Origin: an uncultured Clostridia bacterium
GTDB taxonomy: Bacteria; Bacillota; Clostridia; Christensenellales; Borkfalkiaceae
DNA length: 64,000 nt
Direction: 5' to 3'
Assembly: GCA_947629535.1 (NCBI GenBank)
Contig: CANREC010000001.1
Location: 22,460 to 86,459, forward strand
Below the pieces are notes generated by a model that saw nothing but the letters and a program-made list of their open reading frames with translations, had not been told where the DNA came from and ran no database searches. Of the stretch, positions 8,254 through 64,000 are shown one piece after another. A program made the translations under genes and the position numbers. Positions within the stretch are counted from its first letter, which is position 1. Each line of letters starts with the position of its first letter.

Positions 8254-8268
8254 CGTTTTCGACATTTT

Positions 8269-8293
8269 GCATAGTACTATGTCAGACATAATA
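8269..8293 (+). repeat. Dispersed palindromic element, locus 1
   Basis: GCATAGTACTATGTCAGACATAATA between thyA and folA. Confidence 0.9.
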
Positions 8294-19502: not shown

Positions 19503-19524
19503 AATCTCGTTCTTGACATTTATT

Positions 19525-19550
19525 CATAGTATTGTGTCAGACATAGTATA
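19525..19550 (+). repeat. Dispersed palindromic element, locus 2 (diverged)
   Basis: CATAGTATTGTGTCAGACATAGTATA. Confidence 0.8.
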
Positions 19551-22105: not shown

Positions 22106-24214
22106 TCATTTCTTGGGCCTGACTTGAAGGAAGTAGCAGATCCCGAAGATGAGCACTCCCACAAAGTAGATGGCGGGAAGGATGACGAATGTCATGAGTT
22201 CGGAGATGTTCTCGAAATCGATGCGGACAGAGAGAGCGACGATCAGAGAAACGATCACGATGAGCGCATAGACAACGATCGCATTGATGAATGCAATGGA
22301 TGACTTTCGGAGCGTGCCTTCGCCGAAGTGGTTGGCGTAGAGCAGGCCCGTCACGAGCAGTAAGACGAGCCCGATGCACCACATCAGATAGGGGAAGAAA
22401 ACGGGGAGCGTAAGGGTGCTTTCCAGACCCATCGTAATGCCGCCGATGATCACGCACCAGAAGAAAGCGACGATCGCGCTGAGGAAGAGCGCTTTTCCCT
22501 TATGGACGACTGTGTCGCCGCCGTCGGAACTTTCCGTTGCGGCAGGGCTCTCTCCGCCGACTGTTTCGACGCGCAGGCCGTCGCGGGAGGCTCGTTTTTG
22601 GATATCGCGAAAGTCGATCCCGTTCACGGGCGTCGCCGCACTGTCCTCCGAAGAACGGGAAGAGGGGCGAACGGTATTTTCGTAGAGACGGCCGACGACA
22701 TTGCGGTAATCTGCGCCCGATTGCGTCTCCTCGGAAACGGACTGTTGGGCGTACGCGGGCTGTACCTGCTGGTTAGAGGGTTCAACGAGCGAAATGTAGT
22801 TGCGGTGGATGATCTGTTTTTCTCGTTCCGCCATCTCGAGTTCCATCTGCCTGCGCTGTGCGTCGAGTTGATCGGCAAGCGCCTGTTCATAGCGGGCACG
22901 GTCCTCTTTGATCTGTGCCTCGTGACGCTTTGCCTCATCCGTAAGTGCGTCATTGAAACGCATTCTTTCCTCGTTCAACAACTCATTGTAGCGCTTTTGT
23001 TCGTTCTGCAGGCGTGTTTCTTGAAGATCAGCCTCATTCTCGCGGGCGAGACGGACGGCTTCTTCTTTCTCGCGCCGTGCATTATCCTGCATGGTTTCCA
23101 TCTCACGGCGATGCTTTTCGGAAAGCTCCTTCAGTTCGCTTTCGTGGGATTCCTTTTCAGCCTTGAGTGCGGCGTCGCTCGATTCACGCTGCTCTGTGAG
23201 GGCCTGTTCGTTGGCCTCTTCGAGCGCACGGATGGCCCGCGCATGTTCCTCCGATTCCTCGAGATTCTTCTGTTTCTGGAGCTCGAGCTCGTTTTTGAGA
23301 GACTCATCGGCCGCCGCCTGCGCCTCGGCGTTTTCCTGTTTTTCGGCGAGGAGCTGTTCGCGTTCTTCTGCGATCTCACGCTCGAGCTCTTCTCTCCGCG
23401 AGAGAAGAAGGGCCTCTTGCTGCTCTCTGATGAGAGCGAGCTGCCGCAGGTTGGATTCATAGGAATCGTTGAGCGCCTTTTCCCTTGCGAGCATTTCCTC
23501 TTCAAGCCGCGCCTTCTCCGATTCAAAGTCCGCGCGTTCCCTGTCGAGCGACGCAAACTTTTCGGCATACTCGTCCTCAAGCGCCTTGAGTTTCTCGTTA
23601 TACGACGCGTCGAGCTCGTCCTGTTTCCGTTTTGCGTCCTCTTCAAGACGTTCACGCAGGGCAGAATCGTCGAAAGAAGGTTCAAAGTCGAGCTCTTCCT
23701 CGCCTTCCCCGTCCCGCGGGGGGACGCGAGAGGTCGATCTCCTCAGAACGCTCATATCGACGGCGGTGGGGGCGGGACGGTTGAAATCGAAGTCGCGGTC
23801 GGAGATCAGAGAATCGATGATTGTGCGGGAATATTCCCACTCGGCCTGATTCTGTTCGGAGACCGCCTTGCCCTCATCGGTGAGAGAAAAGTACTTTCTC
23901 CTTCCGCCGCCGACGGAGCCGCCCCAATAGGAAGTGATGTAACCGTCCTTCTCGAGACGCTTGAGCGCGGAATAGAGGGAGGGCTGTTTGAGAGAATATT
24001 GCCCCGAGCTTTTCCGCTCGATCTCGGCAATGATCTCATAGCCGTATTTGTCTCCGTCGTACAGAGAACGGAGAATGATCGTATTGATATGACCGCGGAT
24101 GAGATCGGAGCTTACGCCTTTTTCGGCTCTTTCGTCGTCGCCCGCATCCGGTGCAACGTCCGACGAAGCGCTTTCGTCATCCTCAGGCTGCATGGTCAAA
24201 GTTTCTTCGTCCAT
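22106..24214 (-). CDS. PadR-type winged-helix protein with long coiled coil and C-terminal 4-TM domain
   Basis: N-term LIRGHINTIILRSLYDGDKYGYEIIAEIERKSSGQYSLKQPSLYSALKRLEKDGYI; about 280 aa E/R/K-rich coiled coil; four hydrophobic helices at the C-terminus; RBS AAGGAGG-N5-ATG. Confidence 0.8.
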   Translation of the reverse strand: MDEETLTMQPEDDESASSDVAPDAGDDERAEKGVSSDLIRGHINTIILRSLYDGDKYGYEIIAEIERKSSGQYSLKQPSLYSALKRLEKDGYITSYWGGSVGGGRRKYFSLTDEGKAVSEQNQAEWEYSRTIIDSLISDRDFDFNRPAPTAVDMSVLRRSTSRVPPRDGEGEEELDFEPSFDDSALRERLEEDAKRKQDELDASYNEKLKALEDEYAEKFASLDRERADFESEKARLEEEMLAREKALNDSYESNLRQLALIREQQEALLLSRREELEREIAEEREQLLAEKQENAEAQAAADESLKNELELQKQKNLEESEEHARAIRALEEANEQALTEQRESSDAALKAEKESHESELKELSEKHRREMETMQDNARREKEEAVRLARENEADLQETRLQNEQKRYNELLNEERMRFNDALTDEAKRHEAQIKEDRARYEQALADQLDAQRRQMELEMAEREKQIIHRNYISLVEPSNQQVQPAYAQQSVSEETQSGADYRNVVGRLYENTVRPSSRSSEDSAATPVNGIDFRDIQKRASRDGLRVETVGGESPAATESSDGGDTVVHKGKALFLSAIVAFFWCVIIGGITMGLESTLTLPVFFPYLMWCIGLVLLLVTGLLYANHFGEGTLRKSSIAFINAIVVYALIVIVSLIVALSVRIDFENISELMTFVILPAIYFVGVLIFGICYFLQVRPKK

Positions 24215-24238: not shown

Positions 24239-24267
24239 ATTATAACACAAAACTCAATTTTTGTCAA
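24239..24267 (-). promoter_or_regulatory. Consensus sigma-A promoter of the PadR-TM gene
   Basis: TTGACA-N17-TATAAT on minus strand. Confidence 0.85.
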
Positions 24268-24270
24268 TAG

Positions 24271-24295
24271 GCAGAGTACTATGTCTGACATAATT
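24271..24295 (+). repeat. Dispersed palindromic element, locus 3
   Basis: GCAGAGTACTATGTCTGACATAATT, directly upstream of the PadR-TM -35. Confidence 0.85.
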
Positions 24296-33457: not shown

Positions 33458-33476
33458 ATTTGAAAAAAGATATTTT

Positions 33477-33502
33477 GCATAGTATTATGTCAGGCATAAT
33501 AC
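33477..33502 (+). repeat. Dispersed palindromic element, locus 4
   Basis: GCATAGTATTATGTCAGGCATAATAC between convergent adhE and rplI. Confidence 0.82.
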
Positions 33503-46065: not shown

Positions 46066-46599
46066 ATGAGAAAATTTTACGCCATGAACTACGCCGAAAT
46101 CAAAAAATATGATATTGCAAACGGAGAGGGAGTCAGAGTCTCCCTCTTTGTTTCGGGTTGCAGGCGGCACTGCAAGGGTTGTTTCAATTCTGTCGCGTGG
46201 GATTTTTCTTACGGAAAACCCTTTACCGCCGACACAGAAGAGGAGATCTTTGAGGCACTTTCGCCCGATTATATTGCGGGGCTGTCTCTTCTCGGCGGAG
46301 ATCCATTTGAACCGGAGAATCGGGCCGCTCTTCTTCCTTTCCTCCAAAGAATGCGGCAAAAGTTCCCGCAAAAAGATGTCTGGTGCTATACGGGCTATAC
46401 ATACGAAAACGGTTCCTTGAAGGAGATGAACGGAGATGGGATAGGGGAGATGCTCTCCTGCATCGACATTCTCGTGGACGGACCCTTCATCGAGGCGCTG
46501 AAGGACATCCGACTGAAATTCCGAGGCTCATCCAACCAACGGGTACTCGATTTGAAACGCACAATTAAGGAGAATAGCATAGTACTATATCTGACATAG
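46066..46599 (+). CDS. nrdG: Anaerobic RNR activating protein (radical SAM)
   Basis: SLFVSGCRRHCKGCFNSVAWDF; next to nrdD; last codons lie in the palindromic element. Confidence 0.93.
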   Translation: MRKFYAMNYAEIKKYDIANGEGVRVSLFVSGCRRHCKGCFNSVAWDFSYGKPFTADTEEEIFEALSPDYIAGLSLLGGDPFEPENRAALLPFLQRMRQKFPQKDVWCYTGYTYENGSLKEMNGDGIGEMLSCIDILVDGPFIEALKDIRLKFRGSSNQRVLDLKRTIKENSIVLYLT

Positions 46600-46607
46600 T
46601 ACTATGC
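46577..46607. repeat. Dispersed palindromic element, locus 5 (31-bp symmetric form)
   Basis: GCATAGTACTATATC-T-GACATAGTACTATGC, 15-bp arms with one mismatch. Confidence 0.92.
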
Positions 46608-46732
46608 AAAATGGCGAAAATTTGAGATTTCGATATCAATTTTTCGCTTTTTTCGTTATGCGGTTGACTTTGGAAAAAAATGGGTTATAATAATAGGGTA
46701 ACATTTAACATTTTAATAAAGGAGAAAAGGCA

Positions 46733-47999: not shown

Positions 48000-49064
48000 A
48001 TGATAAAAATCGATATTTTTTCGGGTTTTTTGGGCGCTGGAAAGACGACGCTCATCAAAAAACTTATCAAAGAGGCCTATTGTGGAGAAAAGGTCGTTCT
48101 CATCGAGAATGAGTTCGGCGAGATCGGCGTCGACGGAGGATTCCTTAAGGAAGCGGGCATTGAGATCACTGAAATGAACTCCGGGTGTATCTGCTGTTCG
48201 CTCGTCGGAGACTTCGCCGAGGCGCTCAAAAAAGTCGCCGCCGAATTTTCTCCCGACCGCATCCTCATCGAGCCTTCGGGCGTCGGCAAGCTCTCCGACG
48301 TCATCAAGGCCGTACAGAGGGCAAACGTGCCCGACAGCGTTCTCAACGCTTTCTGCACCGTCGTTGACGCGAAGAAGTGCAAAGTCTACCTGCGCAATTT
48401 CGGTGAATTTTTCCTCGATCAAGTCGAGAATGCAAGCTGTATCGTGCTCTCGCATACGTCCGATCCCGAAAAGACGGTGGAAGCGGTCTCTCTGTTGAAG
48501 GAACACACGCAGGCCACGGTCATCACGACGGACTGGAACGAGCTCGACGGCGGGGAGATCCTTCTCGCCATGCAGCAGACGGACAGCCTCAAGGCCGAGC
48601 TCGACAAACTCGCCGCCGAGGCCCACGAGGAAGATGACGACGATGATGACGAATGCGGATGCCATCATCACCATCACGACCATGACCATGATCATGAAGA
48701 TGACGACGATGATGACGATGACGAATGTGAATGTCATCATCACCACGACGGGGAAGAGCATGAGCATCATCACCATCACCACCATCATCACGCGGACGAA
48801 GTGTTCACCAGTTGGGGCGTGGAGACGGCAAAGATATTCTCTGTGGAGAAACTTGAAAAGGCGCTTGACGCGCTCTCATCGGGTGAGTTCGGGCAGGTGC
48901 TCCGCGCCAAGGGTTATGTGAACGGCGGAGAACAGTGGATCTATTTCGATTACGTTCCCGGGGAGCCCGATATCCGAACAGGTTCGCCCGCCGTCACGGG
49001 CAGGCTCTGCGTCATCGGCTGCAAACTCGACGAAGAAAAGCTGAAAGCGCTGTTTTTGGGGTAA
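48000..49064 (+). CDS. COG0523/CobW-type G3E GTPase with Asp/His/Cys-rich metal-binding segment
   Basis: SGFLGAGKTTLIKKLI, GCICCS; DDDDDDECGCHHHHHDHDHDHEDDDDDDDDECECHHHH...HHHHHHHHH. Confidence 0.9.
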   Translation: MIKIDIFSGFLGAGKTTLIKKLIKEAYCGEKVVLIENEFGEIGVDGGFLKEAGIEITEMNSGCICCSLVGDFAEALKKVAAEFSPDRILIEPSGVGKLSDVIKAVQRANVPDSVLNAFCTVVDAKKCKVYLRNFGEFFLDQVENASCIVLSHTSDPEKTVEAVSLLKEHTQATVITTDWNELDGGEILLAMQQTDSLKAELDKLAAEAHEEDDDDDDECGCHHHHHDHDHDHEDDDDDDDDECECHHHHDGEEHEHHHHHHHHHADEVFTSWGVETAKIFSVEKLEKALDALSSGEFGQVLRAKGYVNGGEQWIYFDYVPGEPDIRTGSPAVTGRLCVIGCKLDEEKLKALFLG

Positions 49065-49067
49065 AAT

Positions 49068-50018
49068 ATGCCGAAGGAAGTTCCCGTCTACCTGTTTTTG
49101 GGCTTTCTCGATGCAGGAAAGACGAAGTTTATCCAAGAGACCTTCGAGGACGAGCGGTTCGATTCGGGCGAAAAGACGCTCCTCCTCGTCTGTGAAGAGG
49201 GCGAAGAGGAATACACGCCTTCTCGCTTTGCCGTGAACAAATATGCCGTCGTCAAGGTGGAGGAAAGCGGCCTCAATATGGCCAACCTTACCAAGATCGC
49301 ACGGGAGAACGGCGCCGAGCGCGTCGTCGTGGAGTGGAACGGCATGATGCTCCTTGATAAATTCTTCGAGGCGATGCCCGATGGCTGGCTCATTGCACAG
49401 GTGATGACCTTCTTTGACGCGAACACTTTTTTGAGCTATAACACGAACATGCGGCAGTTGGTTTTTGACAAGATCACCTATGCCGATATGATCGTTTTCA
49501 ACCGTTTCAACGAGGGGCTCAAGAAGGAAGAATTCCACAAGATCGTCCGTGCGGCCTCCCGCCGTCCCGATATCGTCTATGAATATGTTGGCGGAAGAGC
49601 CGAATATGATGACATCGAGGACCCGTTGCCCTATGACATCAATGCGTCCGTGATCAACGTCGAGGACAGGGACTTTGCCTATTTCTATCGCGACATCCGC
49701 GAGGAGACCGAGAAATACGACGGGAAAACGGTGCATTTCAAGGGCATCGCCGCGGTCGACAGGAAGATGAAGGGGGGGACGTTCGGCATCGGCCGTCTCG
49801 TCATGACCTGCTGTGCCGCCGACATCGCCTATCACGGCCTTGTCTGCATCGGGGACGAAAGTTTCCATGTCAGAACAAACGACTGGCTCACCGTCACGGC
49901 TCGAGTCGATATCGAATATCACAAACTTTACGGAACGAAGGGTCCCGTTCTCAAGATCTTTTCCGCCGAACACACTCTGCCCCTTCCCGAGGGAGAAGAG
50001 GTCGCAACATTCTATTGA
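49068..50018 (+). CDS. G3E GTPase-like domain fused to DUF1980/YcgQ-like C-terminal domain
   Basis: LFLGFLDAGKTKFIQETF N-terminus; C-terminal RLVMTCCAADIAYHGLVCIGDESFHVRTNDWLTVTARVDIEY. Confidence 0.7.
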   Translation: MPKEVPVYLFLGFLDAGKTKFIQETFEDERFDSGEKTLLLVCEEGEEEYTPSRFAVNKYAVVKVEESGLNMANLTKIARENGAERVVVEWNGMMLLDKFFEAMPDGWLIAQVMTFFDANTFLSYNTNMRQLVFDKITYADMIVFNRFNEGLKKEEFHKIVRAASRRPDIVYEYVGGRAEYDDIEDPLPYDINASVINVEDRDFAYFYRDIREETEKYDGKTVHFKGIAAVDRKMKGGTFGIGRLVMTCCAADIAYHGLVCIGDESFHVRTNDWLTVTARVDIEYHKLYGTKGPVLKIFSAEHTLPLPEGEEVATFY

Positions 50019-61654: not shown

Positions 61655-63490
61655 ATGAGTTTCTACTACGACCCCCTTGACAGCGCATGCAAGAGCGTTC
61701 GCGGAGCCATCCCTTGCGACAGTGTCTTGACGCTCCATCTCTATGATAAAAATGAAAGCGGAGAATGTACATTCTCCGCTCAAACTTGTACCTTGATTTT
61801 GTGGAAAAATGGGGAAGAGGCAAAATTCTTCCCGATGAAACGGGAGACGGACGGCTTTTCGCTCAGTCTCTGTTTTCATGAGGTCGGACTGTATTTCTAT
61901 CACTTTGAGATCGACGGTGCCAAATTCAAGCGCGGCGTACTGCGGCGAGGCGTGTTCGACGGCTGTGCCTGCGATTGGCAGATCACCGTCTTTGACGAGG
62001 ATTACACGACGCCTGCATGGTTCAAGGGCGGCGTCATGTACCAGATTTTTCCCGACCGTTTTTATCGGGCCGATGGGCAGTATCCGATCAAAGAGGGAAA
62101 ATATCTGCGCAACGACTGGGGAGGACTGCCTTCGTTCCGCCCCGACAGCAACGGAAAGATCAAAAACAACGACTTTTTCGGGGGGAATCTGAACGGCGTC
62201 CGTGAAAAGCTCGGGTATCTGAAAGATCTCGGCGTGACGGTGATTTATTTCAACCCCATCTTCGAAGCATTCTCCAACCATCGCTACGACACGGGCGACT
62301 ACATGAAGATCGACTGCCTTCTCGGGACGGAGGAAGATTTCGACGCCTTGGTGCAGGAGGCCGAGCGTTTCGGTATTCGCATCATTTTGGACGGAGTTTT
62401 CAATCACACGGGCGACAACAGCCGCTATTTCAATAAATTTGGGGAATACGATAGCGTCGGAGCCTATCAATCCGTGGATTCGCCCTACGCCGATTGGTAC
62501 AAATTCAAGGAATTCCCCGATCTCTATGAATGTTGGTGGGGGATAAAGATCTTACCTGAGATCAACGAGCAGTCAGCCTCTTATCAAGAATTTATCATGG
62601 GCGAAAACGGCGTTCTCAAGAAATGGCTGCGGCACGGGATCGGCGGATATCGGCTCGACGTTGCTGACGAACTCCCCGATTTCTTCCTCAAAAAACTGCG
62701 TAAAACGGTGAAAGAGACCAAACCGGACGCCGTCATCATCGGTGAAGTCTGGGAGGACGCGTCCAACAAGATTTCCTATGATGTCCGCCGTGAATACCTG
62801 CAGGGCTATGAGCTCGACAGCGTGATGAATTATCCGCTCAAGGACGGGATCATCAATTTTATTCGGACGGGCATGACGTACATGTTGCGGGAAACGATCG
62901 CGATGCTCCTCGACAATTACCCGAAACAGACGCTCGACAGCCTGATGAACATTCTCGGCTCGCACGATACGCCGCGGATCCTGACCGTTTTCGGCGGCGA
63001 GGAATGCCACGACAAGGAAGAGATGGCTGTACGGTTCTTGAGCAACGAAGAGCGGCGGAAGGCCAAGGATCTTCTGAAAATGGCCGCAGTTCTCCAGTTT
63101 ACGCTCCCCGGGGTTGCATGTATCTATTACGGGGATGAGGCGGGAATGGAAGGATATCAGGATCCGTTTTGCCGCAGATGTTTTCCGTGGGACAACATCG
63201 ATACCGAACTCCACGATTTCTATAAAAAGCTCGGCAACATCCGTGCGGGAGAGTTTCGTGAGATCTTTGCGGAAGGGACATACGGAGAAGTATTTGCGGA
63301 TACGGGCTGCATCGTCTTTTACCGTCAATACGCCGAAAAAAGCATCGTTGTATTCGTGAACCGCGGGTCCTGTAAATACAGCCTGCATTTTGACGGAACA
63401 TGGAAAGAATTGCTCTCGGAAGAGGTTTTTGAGGGAAAATATACGGTCGATTCCAATTCATTCGGCATTTTGACCAAATACTATGTCTGA
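61655..63490 (+). CDS. GH13 alpha-amylase family enzyme (neopullulanase/maltodextrin glucosidase-like)
   Basis: VMYQIFPDRFY, GVTVIYFNPIFEAFSNHRYDTGDY, GYRLDVADELPDFFL, NILGSHDTPRIL; stop codon lies in the palindromic element. Confidence 0.9.
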   Translation: MSFYYDPLDSACKSVRGAIPCDSVLTLHLYDKNESGECTFSAQTCTLILWKNGEEAKFFPMKRETDGFSLSLCFHEVGLYFYHFEIDGAKFKRGVLRRGVFDGCACDWQITVFDEDYTTPAWFKGGVMYQIFPDRFYRADGQYPIKEGKYLRNDWGGLPSFRPDSNGKIKNNDFFGGNLNGVREKLGYLKDLGVTVIYFNPIFEAFSNHRYDTGDYMKIDCLLGTEEDFDALVQEAERFGIRIILDGVFNHTGDNSRYFNKFGEYDSVGAYQSVDSPYADWYKFKEFPDLYECWWGIKILPEINEQSASYQEFIMGENGVLKKWLRHGIGGYRLDVADELPDFFLKKLRKTVKETKPDAVIIGEVWEDASNKISYDVRREYLQGYELDSVMNYPLKDGIINFIRTGMTYMLRETIAMLLDNYPKQTLDSLMNILGSHDTPRILTVFGGEECHDKEEMAVRFLSNEERRKAKDLLKMAAVLQFTLPGVACIYYGDEAGMEGYQDPFCRRCFPWDNIDTELHDFYKKLGNIRAGEFREIFAEGTYGEVFADTGCIVFYRQYAEKSIVVFVNRGSCKYSLHFDGTWKELLSEEVFEGKYTVDSNSFGILTKYYV

Positions 63491-63515
63491 CATAATTACT
63501 ATGTCAGACATAATA
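63479..63515 (+). repeat. Dispersed palindromic element, locus 6 (tandem 18-bp dimer)
   Basis: TACTATGTCTGACATAAT followed by TACTATGTCAGACATAAT. Confidence 0.92.
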
Positions 63516-63786: not shown

Positions 63787-63900
63787 TTTCCCGCAAAAAT
63801 ACCCTATTTTCAGCCTTAACTATTCGTAAAAGCGTGATTTTGCGAATAGTTCTGTATGTATGTCCGTGTTGTTTCCCTATGCCCCATTGAGGGGTTTTTG
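63787..63900 (+). ncRNA. Candidate small RNA (about 110 nt)
   Basis: TATAAT 63775-63780 upstream; 14-bp hairpin 63818-63851; CCCC-ATTGA-GGGG-TTTTT terminator-like end. Confidence 0.35.
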
Positions 63901-63964: not shown

Positions 63965-64000
63965 ATGGTAAAAAAGAGTATCAACTACTATCAGGAACGG
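63965..64000 (+). CDS. Start of an unidentified CDS, truncated by window end
   Basis: MVKKSINYYQER directly after a consensus promoter. Confidence 0.45.
   Translation, partial: MVKKSINYYQER

Follow-up and report, generated by a model that had tools for sequence, protein, structure and literature searches.

Polar sites pointing to dif, with a membrane-anchored PadR protein as candidate reader, suggest an undescribed way of marking the replication terminus in uncultured Clostridia

The window analysed here, a stretch of DNA of 64,000 nucleotides, carries the sequence GCATAGTACTATATCTGACATAGTACTATGC at positions 46577-46607, over the 3′ end of the anaerobic ribonucleotide reductase activase gene nrdG (Table 1). 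Self-complementarity extends to 28 of its 31 positions, in two 15-bp arms with one mismatched pair and an unpaired central base, and the nrdG frame across it reads ...N-S-I-V-L-Y-L-T-TAG. An earlier note on this DNA had described a near-perfect palindrome with such arms that coincides with the C-terminus and stop codon of nrdG, and had seen in its symmetry two left half-sites placed face to face; all of this is confirmed. Scored with a site matrix built from 101 sites, the palindrome reaches 38.0 on the + strand and 44.1 on the – strand; most sites, by contrast, favour one strand by a wide margin. The best matrix score in 100 simulated 64-kb windows was –1.5, far below the +38 and +44 that the nrdG copy reaches in its two orientations, and an Rfam search gave no match. 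Among the other genes of the window, two adjacent ones (48000-49064 and 49068-50018) both code for CobW-type GTPase-like proteins, the second of which matches the Pfam CobW profile, while the first ends in an Asp/His-rich C-terminal repeat encoded by the DNA repeats at 48627-48788.

Table 1. Coordinates of the terminus-site copies and associated features within the 64,000-nucleotide window
Feature	Position	Strand	Remarks
Polar terminus site	8265..8293	+	Between thyA-like gene and folA; matrix 52.5 on + vs 20.3 on –
Polar terminus site	19520..19548	+	Intergenic, 3′ of YgjP-like gene; matrix 32.8 on + vs 21.2 on –
Candidate receptor gene (702 aa)	22106..24214	–	N-terminal LmrR-like PadR winged helix, long acidic coiled coil, four predicted C-terminal transmembrane helices
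Putative promoter of PadR/transmembrane gene	24239..24267	–	TTGACA, 17 nt, TATAAT; adjoins site; similar layout in orthologues
Polar terminus site	24267..24295	+	Abuts –35 of PadR/transmembrane gene; matrix 35.9 on + vs 17.9 on –; likely autoregulatory; same place upstream of orthologues
Polar terminus site	33473..33501	+	Intergenic; matrix 42.3 on + vs 20.6 on –
nrdG (anaerobic ribonucleotide reductase activase)	46084..46599	+	3′ end holds site; ATG at 46084 is the assumed start codon
Two-way (symmetric) terminus site	46577..46607	no single strand	Over last six codons and stop of nrdG; core 46583-46601
Tandem terminus-site pair	63469..63515	+	Cores 63479-63497 and 63497-63515; matrix 24.5 and 14.0 on +; about 305 bp left of dif
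Putative dif	63820..63849	+	CTATTCGTAAAA GCGTGA TTTTGCGAATAG; single copy in window; near-palindrome; single-recombinase adjacent-dif arrangement
xer recombinase gene start	63965..64000	+	Cut by window end; MVKKSINYYQER resembles N-terminal region of xer in L116

Comparison of 30 nrdG orthologues from the genus, at the DNA level, placed the site at the nrdG end in 18 of them. The gene has equal length with and without the site, and all orthologues stop equally far from a conserved K-[RKQ]-[TS] region. Because the site-less orthologues end at this same distance, most of them with a tail V-[LI]-[YH]-[LI]-x-stop, the VLYL tail of nrdG is, on the evidence of this alignment, native. What goes with the site, by the same comparison, is the terminal Thr and the stop: 18 of the 20 Thr-ending orthologues have the site (matrix score ≥20) against 0 of the 10 others, and the two Thr-ending, site-less orthologues encode their Thr by ACC. 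Site-bearing ends typically use the codons ATA/GTA GTA CTA TAT CTG ACA TAR, whereas site-less genes encode the same residues via different codons and finish on E, K, Q, P, N or A (or T by ACC). Judged from these orthologues, the site is laid over a native nrdG end by substitution, and the earlier proposal of an insertion or expansion at the 3′ end of the gene was not borne out, as site-less orthologues end at the same distance. The companion proposal, that the element supplies the final residues and the stop of nrdG, holds for the terminal Thr and stop and fails for VLYL; likewise, when the SIVLYLT tail is sought in site-less orthologues, VLYL is kept without the element, while the final Thr and the codon series given above follow it. 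In most congeners the nrdG site is one-directional, with its left arm inside nrdG. The two-way palindrome belongs to the window genome and to close relatives of it (L003-L005), where the downstream half is also turned into a left arm.

These results bear directly on the possibility that the element is a mobile palindromic insertion or, at gene ends, a hairpin acting as an RNA terminator, a reading that is already largely refuted and that we consider extremely improbable. The region of the symmetric copy does fold into a strong predicted RNA hairpin (z=–6.2), and sites stand at several gene ends, but the constant length of nrdG argues against an insertion, sites occur within conserved coding regions, and their orientation tracks the replication arm (both described below). 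A role of the palindrome as an RNA terminator was rejected in particular: it folds well, yet nrdG is followed by a hairpin of its own with a T-run, at about 46613-46653 on the + strand.

The nrdG palindrome is one copy, in two-way form, of a dispersed polar site, TTTTGCATAGTAYTATGTCWGACATAATA. The pattern CATAGTACTATG (≤2 mismatches) occurs six times in the window against 0.44 expected, and the further copies, with core positions 8275, 19530, 24277, 33483, 63479 and 63497, belong with it to one repeat family. In the matrix, a strongly conserved 19-bp palindrome with the core TATGT-CWG-ACATA is joined to a weaker left arm (TTTTGCATAG); palindrome and left arm together amount to a pair of overlapping inverted repeats, one better conserved than the other, and make the site polar. 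At 63465-63490, the TGA stop of an alpha-amylase-like ORF (61655-63490) lies inside the first tandem site, the second site of the window to share a gene stop.

Beyond the window, TAYTATGTCWGACATARTA (≤2 mismatches) was found in all 103 congener genomes at 4-42 sites each, while a reversed-pattern control gave 0-2. Within the family, many further genera also have the site pattern, and so do some of the order's other families; outside the order, a related pattern gave single matches in just 4 of about 350 genomes of the class. In these searches the site is restricted to its clade and found essentially nowhere else in the class. In genome G385, which belongs to another family (f19), the motif is shifted to TACTATGTCACAAATAGTA and its orientation is still coherent along contigs. 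Searches of the literature turned up neither the motif nor a PadR protein of the kind presented below.

About half of the mapped sites lie within reading frames; many sites are found at gene 3′ ends, and some stand immediately 5′ of genes, folA and thrS among them. Sites in reading frames include, by eye from the translations, those of miaA, dxs and spoIIIAE. At coding-region sites (L036, L040, L095 and L099; positions 66626 and 72645 of contig C1 of G007), by eye in miaA, spoIIIAE and dxs, the peptide LQSTMSDII or a similar one is imposed, with the length at the miaA site apparently constant. A constraint at the DNA level thus appears to alter conserved proteins where the site falls in coding regions.

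The terminus was located through a putative dif, found beside xer on contigs of three genomes as well as in the window. A single-copy near-palindrome, TTCGTAAAA-N6-TTTTRCGAA, lies beside xer at 592,343 in G186 (same family, 824-kb contig) and at 109,187 in G007 (same genus, 388-kb contig) and is taken as dif there. Cumulative GC skew peaks at 592,039 in G186 and at 119,166 in G007, the latter 10 kb from dif. All genomes are fragmented draft assemblies, and the maps described here are per contig, not whole-chromosome. In G186, all six matches with ≤2 mismatches fall at 549-743 kb of the 824-kb contig, a stretch that includes both the skew maximum and dif, with none on the other contigs. Left of dif, 7/7 sites in G007 and 6/6 in G186 are on the + strand; right of it, 11/13 and 6/7 are on the – strand (pooled P=1e-6; two sites were of ambiguous orientation in this mapping). 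In the window, where dif lies at the right end, every polar site to its left is on +, as are three more sites upstream on the same contig and the four sites left of dif in G064 (contig C1). For the four genomes together (G007, G186, G064 and the window genome), 25 of 26 sites left of dif are on + and 17 of 20 on the right are on – (P=1e-8), with the two-way nrdG site scored as discordant since its – score is 6 bits above its + score. Across 8-kb loci of a species-level collection, orientation matches GC skew in 73 of 86 cases (P=3e-11), and where gene strand and replication arm conflict, the sites side with the arm in five of six. In several genomes, dif has at least one site no more than a few hundred bp away. 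These contig maps show sites that cluster round the putative dif, point to it from both arms and reverse at it.

Could the nrdG-type site be the dif/Xer site itself? This was rejected, given 4-42 copies per genome and the existence of a separate, single-copy dif. It also seems improbable that the sites are guide or loading sites for an FtsK/SpoIIIE translocase, steering it to dif in the manner of KOPS or SRS, an idea for which their polarity toward dif and the presence of at least one of them a few hundred bp from dif in several genomes can be cited. KOPS-type sites are about 8 bp long and dense, whereas the sites described here measure about 30 bp and number 20-40 per genome; moreover, they co-occur with a separate DNA-binding protein and occupy its promoter.

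This protein, the best candidate reader of the sites by promoter position and co-occurrence, surfaced only through a Pfam scan of the window ORFs, after other searches had failed. The scan found a PadR domain (PF03551, E=2.9e-19) in ORF 22106-24214, PDB matches to PadR/LmrR structures reach E-values down to 2.8e-25, and no NCBIfam model scored above cut-off with it. Hydropathy points to four hydrophobic C-terminal segments, and a single-sequence structure model, used for secondary structure only at its mean pLDDT of 61, contains four C-terminal helices and some 290 residues of helix besides the winged helix. Neither a scan for small basic proteins nor one for promoter-proximal ORFs had yielded a receptor candidate, because the receptor is long and acidic. 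The acidic linker contains tandem repeats, e.g. PETPTVEFEDEPEEE (G007 C1 233342-236053; L166), and differs widely in length among species. LexA, encoded beside xer, was rejected as the binder: no site is present at its own promoter, which has an inverted repeat of the AAAC/GTTTG type.

At all six independent loci inspected (window, G007, G064, G186, G209 and L166) the PadR gene has a site immediately 5′ of its promoter, beside the –35 element or a few tens of bases from it. By coordinates alone, a promoter site is also present in G015, G018, G029, G061, G082 and, in the other family, G385, where one copy of the shifted motif lies about 80 bp upstream of the PadR/transmembrane gene; this brings the total to 12 genomes in two families. 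The PadR/transmembrane protein is encoded in 100 of the 103 congeners and in 59 of the 60 good-quality ones. Among 80 chosen genomes, sites were found in 24 of 29 with a close protein (≥60% identity) against 7 of 51 without (P=1e-9), in a test that was built after the candidate had been found and was not blind, with genomes picked by site count and with a P value that overstates independence, the genomes being related. The remaining site-positive genomes belong mostly to f19, f20 and f30, at least one of them (G385) with the shifted motif. G132 has neither sites nor the protein. No long PadR orthologue turned up in G136, which has 18 sites; a close orthologue without detectable sites occurs in G038, G142, G183 and G256, and G217 has a close orthologue with weak sites only. 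Genera with a diverged PadR domain (42-54% identity) had no detectable sites, also when searched with a relaxed pattern. Long PadR proteins (42-61% identity) without clear motif copies occur in G038, G041 and G045 (f3, f6, f10), in f1 g26/g37/g40 and in f32 g117, and genomes with such a diverged protein may use a different site.

With one site clearly on the promoter of the PadR gene and others just 5′ of folA and thrS, the sites might be seen as ordinary operators of a PadR regulon, their terminus clustering a by-product. We find this hard to credit, as so many sites lie in reading frames or at gene 3′ ends, no regulator-type target was seen beyond the PadR gene itself, and a flip of orientation at dif is not predicted by it.

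The best reading, to which we give about an even chance, is that of a membrane-anchored terminus-marking system in which the element would mark the replication terminus as a directional site for protein binding. Most probably, to go by its promoter site and distribution, the PadR protein binds all of the sites and represses its own gene. Because the protein is predicted to be membrane-anchored, it would tether the terminus domain, dif included, to the membrane, probably at the division site, which is comparable to what MatP or ZapT achieve by other means in connecting the terminus to the divisome. As the sites are oriented toward dif, the complex would treat traffic moving toward dif (replication forks, FtsK) unlike traffic leaving it, and the nrdG site, being symmetric, would be readable from both sides. 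A counterpoint to the membrane tether is that a non-polar tether such as MatP/matS would need no oriented sites. If the marking system arrested forks, it would be a third fork trap; without fork arrest, it would be a directional relative of MatP/matS in function.

The main rival is indeed a third, independent fork trap, in which the PadR protein would act like RTP, with forks nearing dif allowed to pass and forks past dif arrested. We regard this as a serious possibility, though an unlikely one. Known terminator proteins are soluble, whereas the candidate is predicted to sit in the membrane, and 20-40 sites about 10 kb apart exceed those of known fork traps and resemble matS more. No Tus or RTP homologue was found in 14 site-bearing genomes, none of which scored over cut-off with the Tus (PF05472) or RTP (PF02334) profile, while the E. 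coli and B. subtilis controls were positive. On the other side of the balance, sites that face dif on both arms and flip at dif have the layout described for Tus and RTP ter sites (PMC6549158), and the winged-helix candidate is encoded in the terminus region with a site at its own promoter, as are tus and rtp (PMC10331603). The site itself consists of two overlapping, unequally conserved inverted repeats, the strong 19-bp palindrome on the dif side and the weaker left arm on the origin side, like the B and A half-sites of RTP (PMC10331603). To date just two fork-trap systems are described, and surveys limit their occurrence to four clades (PMC6549158). An evolutionarily independent third one with an integral membrane PadR terminator is a more speculative version that we would put forward as doubtful; here, forks leaving the terminus would be halted at membrane-held one-way sites around dif, and one protein would couple termination, dif positioning and the choice of division site.

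In all, sequence comparison suggests an undescribed bacterial way to mark or hold the replication terminus. With a dif-centred array of polar sites and a membrane-anchored PadR candidate, these uncultured Clostridia would have a separate way of their own to mark or close the terminus. The system offers a protein that can be tested, a sharply defined motif and, among related genera, a natural contrast between presence and absence. It also presents a case in which the ends of proteins (nrdG) and codons inside genes (apparently miaA and dxs) are adjusted to keep a site of chromosome architecture. Terminus-organising proteins are known mainly from Proteobacteria, and MatP would not be expected in this class.

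Among known systems, RTP-Ter of Bacillus subtilis shares with the present one a winged-helix protein, polar sites made of two overlapping inverted repeats, opposite site orientations on the two arms around dif, and a gene of its own near the terminus whose promoter has a site. It differs in that the sites here have another sequence, are more numerous and lie closer together, and in that the protein here is of the PadR/LmrR family, is no RTP homologue and has a predicted membrane anchor and a long coiled coil. Tus-Ter of Enterobacterales likewise has polar sites toward dif and a site at the promoter of the gene corresponding to our candidate; however, Tus is a soluble monomer, whereas a presumably dimeric winged helix, palindromic core sites and no Tus homologue are found here. 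The matS sites are non-polar and the sites here polar, and MatP is a ribbon-helix-helix protein that can touch the membrane and binds ZapB, in contrast to a PadR protein with four predicted transmembrane helices. The MatP-matS Ter macrodomain is nonetheless alike in its palindromic core and in a few tens of repeats round the terminus, within and between genes, matS being a short palindrome with 23 repeats within the Ter macrodomain (PMC6538776). ZapT of Caulobacter crescentus is another member of a regulator family that serves at the terminus (PMC7188993), with binding positions mostly in reading frames; it belongs to the MerR family and no consensus motif was found for it, unlike the sharp polar motif and predicted transmembrane part described here. 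PadR-s2 and LmrR, finally, share the PadR winged helix, for which PDB matches have E-values of about 1e-25 to 1e-20, and apparent autoregulation. The candidate described here adds a coiled coil and a transmembrane C-terminus to this fold, the core of its sites is ATGT-N3-ACAT as against the published operator ATGT-N8-ACAT, and in place of one regulated operon there are dozens of sites around dif.
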